Below, piece by piece: positions 57,180-60,591 of a stretch of DNA of 64,000 nucleotides. The notes beneath the pieces were generated by a model that saw only the letters and a program-made list of their open reading frames with translations, was not told where the DNA came from and searched no databases. Both the position numbers and the translations under genes were made by a program. This stretch comes from Bdellovibrionales bacterium RIFCSPHIGHO2_01_FULL_40_29 (lineage in GTDB: Bacteria > Bdellovibrionota > Bdellovibrionia > Bdellovibrionales > Bdellovibrionaceae): assembly GCA_001771815.1 (NCBI GenBank), contig MEPU01000007.1:62001-126000 (forward strand). The letters run 5' to 3'. How positions within the stretch are numbered: position 1 is the stretch's first letter; every line of letters starts with the position of its first letter.

Positions 57180-58640
57180 GTGAAGTTCAAATTATTGCTT
57201 GTTGTATCTGCTGTTGCAGCCGTGGGCTTGATGTCCGGCTGTGCTCACTCGACGAATCCAAATTCTTCTGAAAATTCAGCAGAATCTTCTGAAGAGCCAA
57301 CTCAATTTCGAGTGGCTGATTTAAATAAAACAAGTGCTGAGCCAGCTGTTGAATTAGAAATTATACCGACTGAAATTAATTCAAAGGTTGAAAAATGGAT
57401 TAATTATTTTCAAGGTCGTGGCCGTCCACATATGGAACGCTACTTGTTGCGTTCCACACGGTATGAAGCTCTTATGAAAAAGGTTTTGCGTGATAATAAA
57501 TTGCCAGAAGATCTTTTTTACATTGCACTCATTGAATCAGGATTTAGTTCATCGGCATTTAGTCATGCGTCAGCTGTTGGTTATTGGCAATTTATTCGTG
57601 GAACGGGGAAACGTTATAAATTAAGAATTAATCAGTTGGTTGATGAGCGCCGCGATCCTGTTCTTTCGACTCAAGCCGCAGCAGATTATTTTAAAGATCT
57701 CTATAAATTGACGAACTCTTGGTACTTGTCGATGGCTTCGTACAATGTCGGCGAAGGGCGTATTCTTAGGGCCATGCGCAAGTACAAAACAAATGATTTT
57801 TGGGAATTATCACGAAATAAGCGGGCCTTACCACGAGAAACAGATGACTATGTTCCTAAGTATATTGCAGCCAAGTTGATTGCAAAGAATCCAGACAAGT
57901 ACGGGTTTGATGGAATTGATTATATGGCGCCCATTGAATTTGATCATGTGACCTTAAATCAGCCCGTCAATTTGCGCGTGATGGCTGAAAAAATGAATTA
58001 CAATTACGAAGAATTCAAAGCTTTGAATCCCAAGTTTAAAGGAGAGGTTGCTCCCCTAGATTCAGAAAATATTTTGGGATTGCGTATTCCAGTTGGGGGA
58101 TACGAAGTGGCGATGAAGGCCGCACAAGAAAGTATTGTCGATAAAATTGAATACGTCGCTGATCATAATGAAGTTCAAAATTATCGTGTGCGCCGTGGAG
58201 ATACCTTTTCTGGAATCGCACGTCGATTCCGAACCAATGTGGCTTTTTTACGTGATTTGAATGATTTTCCTCGTAAGAAAAAGTTGCGTGCAGGTCGATT
58301 GATTTTAGTTCCAGATCGCACTCCATTGGTTGAAAAACGTCCAGAAGTGATCGCAAAAACAAAAGCAGCTAGCGCACGATCAGGATCTGAAAAATTTTAT
58401 ATTGTACAACCAGGGGATTCGTTGTGGTCTATCGCAGATAAATACAAAGTATCGATGCTGAGTTTACAAAGACTGAATAATATCACTCGAAAAAGTAAAT
58501 TGAAATCAGGTTCAAGACTGATTATTCCTGAAAATAAAGAAGCTAAGCTTGATAATAAGAACAATTCCACTTATAAAAAAGCAAAATCTAAAAAGCGTAT
58601 CGTTTCCAATAAAAAATCCCGAAAGATTGCTCGCGATTAG
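57180..58640 (+). CDS. MltD-type lytic transglycosylase with two LysM domains
   Basis: A 486-residue lipoprotein (signal MKFKLLLVVSAVAAVGLMSG, Cys21). The GTG start follows TTGGAGTTTCA. The lytic transglycosylase domain (about 90-225) has the catalytic Glu in LIESGFSSSAFSHASAVGYWQFI and the downstream motifs MASYNVGEGRIL and ETDDYVPKYIAAKLIA. Two LysM domains bind peptidoglycan (about 336-380, YRVRRGDTFSGIARRFRTN; and about 405-450, YIVQPGDSLWSIADKYKVS). It cleaves glycan strands in the periplasm. It could serve wall remodelling of self or prey; this cannot be decided from sequence. Confidence 0.95.
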   Translation: MKFKLLLVVSAVAAVGLMSGCAHSTNPNSSENSAESSEEPTQFRVADLNKTSAEPAVELEIIPTEINSKVEKWINYFQGRGRPHMERYLLRSTRYEALMKKVLRDNKLPEDLFYIALIESGFSSSAFSHASAVGYWQFIRGTGKRYKLRINQLVDERRDPVLSTQAAADYFKDLYKLTNSWYLSMASYNVGEGRILRAMRKYKTNDFWELSRNKRALPRETDDYVPKYIAAKLIAKNPDKYGFDGIDYMAPIEFDHVTLNQPVNLRVMAEKMNYNYEEFKALNPKFKGEVAPLDSENILGLRIPVGGYEVAMKAAQESIVDKIEYVADHNEVQNYRVRRGDTFSGIARRFRTNVAFLRDLNDFPRKKKLRAGRLILVPDRTPLVEKRPEVIAKTKAASARSGSEKFYIVQPGDSLWSIADKYKVSMLSLQRLNNITRKSKLKSGSRLIIPENKEAKLDNKNNSTYKKAKSKKRIVSNKKSRKIARD

Positions 58641-58654
58641 AAGCTTGATTAAGC

Positions 58655-58694
58655 AAAAAAAAATGCAAGCTTACCATCCAATGACAAGCTTGCA
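58655..58694 (-). terminator. Rho-independent terminator of the riboswitch RNA
   Basis: On the minus strand, TGCAAGCTT and AAGCTTGCA form nine perfect pairs with a 13-base loop, followed by nine T residues. It lies 84 bases after the c-di-GMP aptamer, with no coding sequence between them. The aptamer RNA would therefore end here as a short transcript. Confidence 0.8.
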
Positions 58695-58778
58695 CTAAGG
58701 GGAATGAAACCAATCCATGATATAATGTTTAGAACAGATTTTTCCTTCCATTGCGATTTTCACCGCAGGCTTTTCTAT

Positions 58779-58861
58779 CCTTTGGCAGCTGGCTGGCAGT
58801 CTTTCGAAGCCCCTCTAGCTTTGCGTCCCCCAGTTTCCCGAGGTTTGCCTTGAGGCAAAAG
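58779..58861 (-). ncRNA. c-di-GMP-I (GEMM) riboswitch RNA, apparently free-standing
   Basis: The minus strand has the core elements of the GEMM-I aptamer. P1 is CTTTTG/CAAAGG, then the conserved GGCAAACC. The next stem is CCTCGG with a GAAA tetraloop and CTGGGG, followed by the hallmark GACGCAAAGC. The 3' side reads GCCAGCCAGCTGCC. A 5' hairpin with a GTGA loop (ATACGG/CCGTAT) precedes it. The next plus-strand gene is mltD, in the opposite sense, and no gene follows in the minus direction before the terminator at 58655. It would thus make a short RNA that binds cyclic di-GMP. A similar, highly abundant RNA has been reported from Bdellovibrio attack phase; identity with it is inferred. Confidence 0.85.
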
Positions 58862-59023
58862 AAGGATACGGTCACCCGTATTTTAAAGTCCGCTAAGCGC
58901 CTCCTATTAATTAAATTGTTTAATAGTGCACAGAACTCTTCTTTTACTTATAAAAGGTGAATCATTTTATTGGAGCTACTTCACTTTGGTGATTTGTCAT
59001 TGTGATTATATATTCTTCTCACA

Positions 59024-59041
59024 CGTCCCCCATTTTCCCGA
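59024..59041 (-). repeat. Partial second copy of the riboswitch core
   Basis: An 18-base stretch matches 58824-58841 at 17 of 18 positions (minus-strand TCGGGAAAATGGGGGACG against TCGGGAAACTGGGGGACG) and lies exactly 200 bases away. The following ligand-binding CAAAGC is replaced by TGTGAG. It may be a decayed duplicate or chance. The remaining sequence of 58695-59166 shows no gene. Confidence 0.35.
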
Positions 59042-59166
59042 CAACTGTCCCGAGTGACCTACTCAGGCTTACGTCGATTGTCATCCGCATACATAAAAGA
59101 ATAGCTCTTGGAAAAAAAAGTTTCCAATTTATATTTTTATTTATCAAAATAGATCAGAATTTTGTC

Positions 59167-60591
59167 TCAATTAGACGCGTCTTCATCGCCAGTCTTTCGA
59201 ATGTAATTAAACTTACCGGCATGAGCGGCATTTTTAACGTAACGGTAGTAAATCCCCACCATCTCGGTAATTTTATCATCGTATTTTGTTACTTGTGGTT
59301 CCGGTGCAGATTTTTTATCGGCAAAGTCAATTCCAACAGCCATTTTCATTGATGTCACAGGCACTTTTAATTCCACATGCCGAGCATCTGAGACACCAGT
59401 TTTAATCACACTATTGGATTTAATGACCGTGAGTGGATTTTTTAAATACCGAGCTGTGTACATGTGATCCAAGTACAGGCCTTGATCGCGATCGATCGTT
59501 GTTTGCAATCCACCTTTGCTTTCAAAGGCTGTGCGGTGATAAGTCGTGGCGCCTTCGATCATTAAAAAATCCGGATTTTCCAGAATTCCTTCTCGAATGA
59601 TGTCAAAAACGGCTTCAATACGTGATTGATTCTCCGGGAATTTTTTGGTCAATTCACGAATGATAGAATCCACGCGACTCAAGGATTCAGATTGTTTTTT
59701 ATCTATCGTATCGGTTTTTAGCGGTGCAAAAAATTTTGAAACTTGGGCTGGCGTCAGAGTGACATCTAGTTTCTGAACCATATGATTTCCAGCAAGAAGA
59801 GGGTATTTTTCTCCGGAGATGGTGTCACTCAGAACACTTTTGATTTCAAGTTTAAATGTTTTACCGTGAGGCGCATAGAATCGAGGAGTCCAGCCATAGC
59901 GGGATCGCATTTGTTCTAATGACAGCGATTCTTGCGTTGTGGTTGTTGGCTTATCTCCACTAACAACTAAATATTGACTGACATTTTCTCGTGTGATGGT
60001 CACTAAATTACTTTTTGAATCAAATGCTGTGACAGAGCTGCCAACAGGAATTTCGCGCCATTCAATTTCACGCAAGTAAGTTCGAATGCGCACCTGGTGT
60101 TTACCGTCGCCAGAAGCATTTTTGATGGGTTTCGTGTAATAAGTAAAGGTGGTGTCTCGGGCACCGCGCGGGGCAGGTTTGTCGCGAACAGAAATTTGAT
60201 CTTCAGGATGGTTTTTTTGAGATGTTTGTAACTCATACATGCGTTGGTGTACTTGTCGAGTAAAGCCCTCGTGTCCGAGATCCAATCCGTCAAGAACAAA
60301 AGCACGACTCTCCACGGTTAGGAAATGATTAATCAAATCAAAAGTATACCGATTGGATTCAGCAACAGATAATTTTGTTTTCCATTCGCTGCGCCAAACT
60401 GTTGCTAACTTTCCAGATAGAGTGTTTCGAAGGTTTTTGATTTTTTGAGAAAAAATTTTGTCATGAACAACAATATTTTCAATGGGCTGAATAAAGAGTG
60501 ATTTGCAAAGTGGTTCGGCCCACCCTGTTGTCGGCAGAAGTAGCATTAAAGCCAATACACCCGGAAGAAATCGTTTAAAAATTAAACTCAT
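59167..60591 (-). CDS. Exported VTC/CYTH-like domain protein
   Basis: A 474-residue protein with signal peptide MSLIFKRFLPGVLALMLLLP and cleavage after WA, followed by PLCKSLF (Cys29). Beta strands and motifs resemble a VTC/CYTH (triphosphate tunnel) fold: KHQVRIRTYLREIEW, FKLEIKSV, TYHRTAFESKGGLQTTIDRDQGLYLD and HVELKVPV. These are the Arg/Lys- and Glu-rich strands that bind polyphosphate or nucleotide triphosphates. VTC domains polymerise polyphosphate. This call is from motif order and needs a profile search. It is encoded with two other exported proteins; its ATG overlaps the stop of the upstream gene. Confidence 0.65.
   Translation of the reverse strand: MSLIFKRFLPGVLALMLLLPTTGWAEPLCKSLFIQPIENIVVHDKIFSQKIKNLRNTLSGKLATVWRSEWKTKLSVAESNRYTFDLINHFLTVESRAFVLDGLDLGHEGFTRQVHQRMYELQTSQKNHPEDQISVRDKPAPRGARDTTFTYYTKPIKNASGDGKHQVRIRTYLREIEWREIPVGSSVTAFDSKSNLVTITRENVSQYLVVSGDKPTTTTQESLSLEQMRSRYGWTPRFYAPHGKTFKLEIKSVLSDTISGEKYPLLAGNHMVQKLDVTLTPAQVSKFFAPLKTDTIDKKQSESLSRVDSIIRELTKKFPENQSRIEAVFDIIREGILENPDFLMIEGATTYHRTAFESKGGLQTTIDRDQGLYLDHMYTARYLKNPLTVIKSNSVIKTGVSDARHVELKVPVTSMKMAVGIDFADKKSAPEPQVTKYDDKITEMVGIYYRYVKNAAHAGKFNYIRKTGDEDASN

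Follow-up and report, generated by a model that had tools for sequence, protein, structure and literature searches.

Riboswitches of the c-di-GMP-I class usually precede structural genes, and leader ORFs such as tnaC and mgtL of Salmonella mgtA precede a structural gene of the same transcript. The closest described relative of the RNA reported here is merRNA of Bdellovibrio bacteriovorus HD100, a 445-nt transcript (1,073,741–1,074,185, minus strand) whose expression was two-fold above that of tmRNA in the attack-phase transcriptome (Karunker et al., 2013; PMC3627812). A second paper likewise describes it as a predicted c-di-GMP riboswitch with very high expression in attack phase (PMC11323537). 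In the 2013 report, no conserved ORF is given downstream of the merRNA riboswitch, merRNA is held not to be a usual cis-regulator, its conservation is not found outside the Bdellovibrio lineage, and a role as a c-di-GMP buffer or reservoir is offered by the authors themselves as speculation (PMC3627812). Reportedly expressed at massive levels in the attack phase of a model bacterial predator, merRNA has been explained as a non-coding c-di-GMP store.

The locus described here lies in a 64,000-nucleotide stretch of DNA (the window) from Bdellovibrionales bacterium RIFCSPHIGHO2_01_FULL_40_29, and its features are collected in Table 1. A covariance-model search matched RF01051 over its full length (1–87, E 2.7e-9) and above the gathering score, bearing out the full GEMM-I core that the initial annotation had read on the minus strand; a genome-wide search returned the window copy as the sole RF01051 match in its own genome. 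By this score the window RNA is a c-di-GMP-I riboswitch, for which c-di-GMP binding is predicted. The variant ligand class RF03167 was preferred to RF01051 in one comparison, but the window aptamer scores 54.7, below the cut-off of 59 for that sub-family, and the assignment was rejected; one relative (L062) passes the cut-off (66.6). A stretch of GEMM-like appearance, GTCGGGAAAATGGGGGACG (59042–59024), was also considered as a second 5′ aptamer and discarded: no second c-di-GMP match was found at E values up to 10, and the stretch proved to precede ORF1, one of two micro-ORFs described below. The start of the aptamer, TTTGCCTCAAGGCAAA (58859–58844, minus strand), is able to fold into a hairpin incompatible with the aptamer structure, and a hairpin of this kind is present in the predicted lowest-energy folds of several relatives.

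Table 1. Positions in the window of the riboswitch RNA, its parts and its convergent neighbor.
Feature	Position	Strand	Basis or remark
-35-like hexamer TTGGAA	59122..59127	(-)	Read directly; 18 nt from TATTCT; judged by comparison only
-10-like hexamer TATTCT	59098..59103	(-)	Read directly and by comparison with the HD100-like copy
ORF1, 13 codons, GTG start, VRRIYNHNDKSPK-stop	58981..59022	(-)	Frame-specific selection in 12 loci of the genus
AGGAGG, perfect SD-like hexamer	58900..58905	(-)	Without a start codon at the usual distance
P0 5′ strand TCCTTCT	58860..58866	(-)	Pairs with 58749-58743; permutation and shuffle tests
c-di-GMP-I (GEMM-I) riboswitch aptamer	58859-58781	(-)	RF01051, 60.3 bits against a gathering score of 35
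Hairpin P4, UGCGGU-GAAA-AUCGCA	58752..58767	(-)	Single-sequence fold, predicted -6.3 kcal/mol
ORF2, 18 codons, MEGKICSKHYIMDWFHSP-stop	58695..58751	(-)	Frame kept throughout the family; occupies most of the linker
P0 3′ strand GGAAGGA	58743..58749	(-)	From the G of the ORF2 ATG to codon 3
Intrinsic terminator hairpin	58696-58662	(-)	Terminator scan; first base inside the ORF2 stop codon
Run of nine T	58663-58655	(-)	Read directly
Convergent mltD-like gene, lytic transglycosylase-like and LysM-like sequence	57180..58640	(+)	Named by reading its translation; synteny marker

In the HD100-like copy (relative G003), the aptamer occupies 1073868–1073951 of the minus strand, inside the published merRNA coordinates, and the window copy aligns with this copy through sequence blocks common to both. 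We therefore place the window RNA in the merRNA family and, as judged from sequence, regard it as the counterpart of merRNA, which means that a stand-alone riboswitch RNA of this kind was already known; the relation is stronger than the likeness to the Bdellovibrio attack-phase RNA claimed at first. Across relatives, a single copy of the aptamer was present in 59 of the 66 genomes of the family (f1), in 88 of 140 at the level of the order and in 90 of 143 at that of the class. The detailed comparisons below concern the 88 loci of the order, two further class-level loci being read by eye. In the seven family genomes without the aptamer, a laxer search gave nothing over the cut-off; five of them are split into at least 130 contigs and the G027 assembly is 54% complete, which leaves G032 (20 contigs, 97% complete) as the one apparent true loss.

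The transcript appears to extend well upstream of the aptamer. The HD100-like copy carries TTGAAA, 18 nt and TATCCT upstream of the published merRNA start, and the equivalent pair in the window was recognized by comparison with it, being absent from the output of a consensus promoter scan of the window. These promoter-like pairs end 238 nt (window) and 250 nt (HD100-like copy) before the aptamer, and with the 234-nt distance from start to aptamer of published merRNA the window transcript would begin at about 59093. Since the window pair is placed like that of the HD100-like copy, we infer a transcript of about 437 nt that probably starts near 59091. Of the extent of 58655–58861 initially assigned to the RNA, the 3′ parts stand and the 5′ end, placed at 58861, probably does not. 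At the 3′ side, the gap between aptamer and hairpin (58780–58697) is 84 nt, exactly as had been noted along with the nine T residues. Both strands of 57800–59700 hold six terminator-like sites (1.7 ± 1.2 in shuffled sequences), among which this hairpin has the most pairs (16), and by these sequence features the window RNA has its own terminator.

The initial description of a stand-alone RNA agrees with its surroundings, in which a single aptamer is followed by a convergent gene and no same-strand gene of ordinary size. The same-strand gene upstream ends at 59167, and minus-strand frames antisense to the convergent gene reach at most 108 aa. In 83 of the 88 loci the flank examined includes an ORF of 90 aa or more downstream of the RNA (the other five have none); the nearest such ORF is convergent in 60 and same-strand in 23, the latter varying in length and distance. 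No conserved gene of ordinary size was therefore found downstream of the RNA in these 83 loci, in line with the published view that merRNA does not act as a usual cis-regulator. In 55 of the 88 loci, a relative of the mltD-like gene faces the 3′ end of the RNA in convergent orientation, at about 0.2 to 4.5 kb (38 of the 59 loci in f1, plus loci in f5, f6, f7, and f9); it lies upstream of the RNA in two f5 loci, and no mltD-like gene was seen in the flank examined at 31 of the 88. This neighborhood is widely kept, though not beside the HD100-like copy, where 5,868 nt of 3′ flank hold no mltD-like gene. Within the window transcript, the candidates for ligand-controlled expression are micro-ORFs only.

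Two such micro-ORFs speak against the claim that no gene is under control of the RNA: a conserved frame of 13 codons 5′ of the aptamer (ORF1) and an 18-codon frame between aptamer and terminator (ORF2). ORF1 measures about 10–19 codons across loci. It reads MRTHEHHDDELK-stop in the HD100-like copy (1074121–1074083, minus strand, inside published merRNA), MKNRIHDHHDEPPK-stop or MKHRIHDHHDEPPK-stop in many copies of the HD100-like genus; in families f7 and f9, readings like MAKRPKDWRLDPPPK-stop occur. A pattern count recognized it in 64 of the 88 loci (45 of 59 in the family, 19 of 29 outside) and did not recognize it in 14 of the 59 family loci.

With rows chosen by the C-terminal pattern, dN/dS of ORF1 was 0.17 in the window’s genus (12 of 13 loci), 0.28 in 24 loci of genus g4 and three others, and 0.43 in 18 loci of f7 and f9. 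The other two plus frames at the same place gave 1.24–1.32 in the window’s genus and 1.16–1.70 over all three groups. A second choice of rows, picked by their SD with no peptide rule except the last codon, gave ORF1 in 10/13, 21/21, and 17/23 loci of the three groups, with ratios of 0.17, 0.25, and 0.43 that were matched by 3, 4, and 0 of 500 column shuffles, respectively. The window ORF1 is not among the first ten because its SD-like sequence (GGGGGA) is weak; for the group, ORF1 combines a short ORF, an SD and amino-acid conservation. A minus-strand gene over ORF1 was weighed and rejected: the ratio in the minus frame is also low (0.16, 0.31, 0.49), as expected from shared wobble positions, yet stops interrupt this frame in 10 of 12 g1 rows and 16 of 16 g4 rows. 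In f7 and f9 the minus frame is free of stops, so there the plus strand is favored by the SD and by stop conservation only, the stop codon itself varying between TGA, TAA, and TAG. ORF1 is under purifying selection on its amino acids, and this is the strongest single result of the analysis. Consensus folding of the 5′ part gave no pairs in g1 and weak ones in g4 and g19. In the g19 loci L002, L008, L010, L013, L014, and L032, ORF1 is unrecognizable, and another repeated reading, such as NNYQQ.YQNDT.Y-stop, was seen by eye in the 5′ region, with a start codon that is not clear in all.

Ribosomes pause at Pro-Pro-Pro, and proline-rich leader ORFs such as mgtL are known. ORF1 could be a leader peptide acting in cis, in which a ribosome held at the proline-rich end would set how the aptamer part folds, how stable it is or how it terminates, while the peptide itself did nothing elsewhere. 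The ORF is short, 57 of the 64 recognized copies have P[KE] directly before the stop (a pattern written after the peptides had been seen), often preceded by more prolines and reading DPPPK or DPPPE in other families, and its stop codon falls in or under a small predicted hairpin in 52 of the 64 (an uncontrolled count). However, no conserved structural gene follows for such a leader to control, the HD100-like ORF1 ends in DDELK, without proline, and that of the window has a single one, leaving this reading possible but rather doubtful.

ORF2 is read as MEGTNTYKDWFHSP-stop in the HD100-like copy (1073832–1073788), again inside merRNA. Its two anchors, ATGGAAG and a C-rich end, are both present in 48 of the 59 family loci, and the distance between them is in frame in 45 of these 48 (the HD100-like copy included), or in 32 of 35 unique spacers, with in-frame lengths of 28, 31, 34, 37, 40, 43, 46, and 55 and exceptions in L020, L045, and L052. 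None of the 48 anchored loci has a stop in frame 0, whereas among the 35 unique spacers 9 carry a stop in frame +1 and 9 in +2. Parsimony on a tree of the aptamer and upstream sequence places 17 length changes in ORF2, of which 14 are multiples of three (binomial p 4.7e-5); in the flanking segments, aptamer to ATG and motif to T-run, the corresponding counts are 6/19 and 6/23 (Fisher p 3e-4 against the pooled 12/42). With permissive endings, ORF2 ends at the motif in 48 of the 59 family loci, in L020 only via an inner ATG that leaves 7 codons; the stop is displaced in 9, and 2 have no ORF2 (L029, L045). A fully conserved peptide was rejected, as the middle codons are free, with mismatches of 30, 50, and 27 by codon position, no third-position excess, and 73 non-synonymous against 11 synonymous changes. 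The reading frame and the ends of ORF2 are kept and its middle is not; the ends may be kept by RNA pairing. The SD energy before ORF2 represents a modest gain over shuffled sequence (-5.6 vs. -4.6), the window being weak (-3.0).

ORF2 corrects the published statement that no conserved ORF lies downstream, as far as can be read from the DNA, and membership in the merRNA family is not weakened by it. A conserved 20-mer at the ORF2 end has 21 matching stretches in the genome collection, 20 of them titled Bdellovibrio, Pseudobdellovibrio, Bdellovibrionaceae or Pseudobdellovibrionaceae and one only “bacterium.” Outside the family, ORF2 was not recognizable by eye in f7 and f9. The terminator helix starts inside the ORF2 stop codon in 37 of the 46 loci tested and further upstream in the other 9, two of the 48 loci having been left out as too short. 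In the clade of L035, L036, L040, and L046, the stop is lost and the frame runs ten codons further into the terminator hairpin, with extended readings of FHSPRLRVIKDDSS or FHSPRLGAINDDYS. Three f5 loci (L068, L079, L086) combine a strong AAGGAGG with an ORF that starts at ATG and extends into the terminator hairpin; its prolines lie near the end or within. In the class-level relatives L117 and L118, a P0 strand resembling an SD and a short ORF starting with ATG were seen by eye after the aptamer, suggesting that a micro-ORF in this position may predate the family.

The start of ORF2 is tied to the aptamer by a helix, P0, which is continuous with the aptamer stem P1, so that a helix joined to the aptamer covers the ORF2 start codon region. 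Across copies the 5′ strand reads UCCUUC(C/U) just 5′ of the aptamer. P0 was noticed while reading the alignment and tested afterwards. In swaps of P0 partners, none of 2000 permutations paired as well as the own partners, whether in 48 unique family loci, in 28 loci of other families or in all 76. In the 56-row family alignment, 91.4% of P0 cells pair, and both partners have changed in 10 cells where 2.7 would be expected; none of 500 shuffles reached the observed value for paired cells, for double changes or for the covariation score, while the number of pairs with double changes (3) was reached by 49 of 500 and further pair types by 134 of 500. Slid by +1 column, P0 still pairs in 78%. For example, codon 3 of ORF2 in the window’s genus varies among GGA, GTA/GTT and GAA, matched on the 5′ strand by C, A and T, respectively, the pair being C-G (as in L001), A-U (L006, L009, L011, L017, L022, L024, L030) or U-A (L026). 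P0 covaries and closes the aptamer domain. An RNAalifold consensus fold of the whole module returned the aptamer helices only, we think because MAFFT misaligns the linker. Similarly to the class-level relatives above, several deep family members and some f5 loci have, by eye, a P0 strand that is SD-like before an ATG.

Hairpin P4 ends immediately before the ORF2 ATG and contains a weak SD-like GGTG, and hairpins with other letters are predicted at the same place in many relatives. When 45 loci were folded with and without the aptamer enforced, openness of the AUG region was predicted to rise in 16 and fall in 4, and that of the SD region before ORF2 to rise in 3 and fall in 8, so this folding does not support a clear off switch. 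Upstream of the aptamer, AGGAGG recurs at 15–65 nt in 55 of the 59 loci of the family and in 17 of 28 elsewhere, where shuffles expect 0.55 and 0.23; in the resulting 72 of 87 loci tested, ATG, GTG or TTG stands at the usual distance in only 13. This orphan AGGAGG could serve as a pairing partner for the P0/P1 strand or as a ribosome-binding site.

These results must be set against the published view, shared by the initial annotation, in which the RNA would be purely a sponge, a non-coding merRNA that holds c-di-GMP in attack phase and frees it after prey contact, any ORFs being incidental. The extreme abundance of merRNA in HD100 attack phase and the absence of a same-strand gene, as reported, favor this view (PMC3627812), as does the convergent orientation of most downstream neighbors (60/83). 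Amino-acid selection on ORF1 and conservation of the ORF2 frame are nevertheless not what a sponge would lead one to expect, and a helix over a start codon would be needless to it, making a sponge in this pure form unlikely, even though the published reservoir idea as such is compatible with the ORF1, ORF2, and P0 results. Also unlikely is that ORF2 is untranslated, AUGGAAGG and UUCAUUCCCCUUAG being RNA elements (the P0 strand and a C-tract able to pair with the aptamer AGGGG) whose in-frame spacing reflects chance or another constraint: both ends are nearly invariant at the nucleotide level in most of the family, P0 covaries, and in two of the ten loci folded (L001, L021) the lowest-energy structure joins AGGGG to CCCCU, but length changes in multiples of three exceed those of the flanks and frame 0 is free of stops in every anchored locus. 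Covariation between the C-tract and AGGGG showed little variation inside the family and no clear pattern outside it, by eye.

The explanation we lean towards, with some confidence, is that the merRNA counterpart is a riboswitch mRNA in miniature, rather than a sponge that codes for nothing. The transcript, of about 437 nt and with its own promoter and terminator, would be built around one c-di-GMP-I aptamer, the ORF1 micropeptide being translated from its 5′ part and ORF2 starting inside P0, which would extend the P1 stem. Binding of c-di-GMP would stabilize P1 and P0, cover the ORF2 start codon and reduce ORF2 translation, and a fall in c-di-GMP would open the start; since P0 is continuous with P1 and lies over the ORF2 start, a lowering of ORF2 translation by c-di-GMP is the simplest reading. 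Because the terminator stem has its base at the ORF2 stop codon, a ribosome that completes ORF2 would come into contact with it. At high abundance the RNA may also hold c-di-GMP. A more specific form of this explanation, which we put forward tentatively, is that merRNA is a bicistronic micropeptide mRNA, in which two peptides of about 10–20 residues flank an aptamer that gates the second through the start-codon helix. If the bicistronic form were true, the most abundant RNA of the predator would be a c-di-GMP-controlled peptide switch in the change from hunting to growth. In this form, ribosomes at the ends where proline stands next to the stop, or at the orphan AGGAGG, may contribute to the action of the RNA.

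While the stand-alone c-di-GMP riboswitch RNA was known, the conserved micro-ORFs and P0 in a merRNA-type RNA and its spread across the order appear to be new, in that no description of them was found among the matches listed in the open-access literature, subscription papers being mostly outside the scope of the search. If merRNA carries selected micropeptides, its best-known explanation is incomplete and existing merRNA data need to be re-read; merRNA function would be directly testable in strain HD100, and this would be an unusual riboswitch RNA whose sole gene products are peptides of about 20 residues or fewer.

Compared with merRNA, the window RNA has the same single c-di-GMP-I aptamer, order of parts and terminator, and likewise no same-strand gene of ordinary size, with similar lengths of 445 nt (published) and about 437 nt (inferred). 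The two differ in that RNAs of the window type hold two conserved micro-ORFs, while merRNA was published as non-coding, in that the aptamer reaches 88 of 140 genomes of the order, beyond the published range, and in that the mltD-like neighbor of the window is absent within 5.9 kb of the HD100-like copy. Compared with other c-di-GMP-I riboswitches (RF01051), the window aptamer is alike in sequence and structure, but its transcript holds only micro-ORFs. Like mgtL, ORF1 is a very short ORF in an RNA with a ligand-sensing structure and has Pro codons near its stop; unlike mgtL and tnaC, it is followed by no structural gene in the window transcript.
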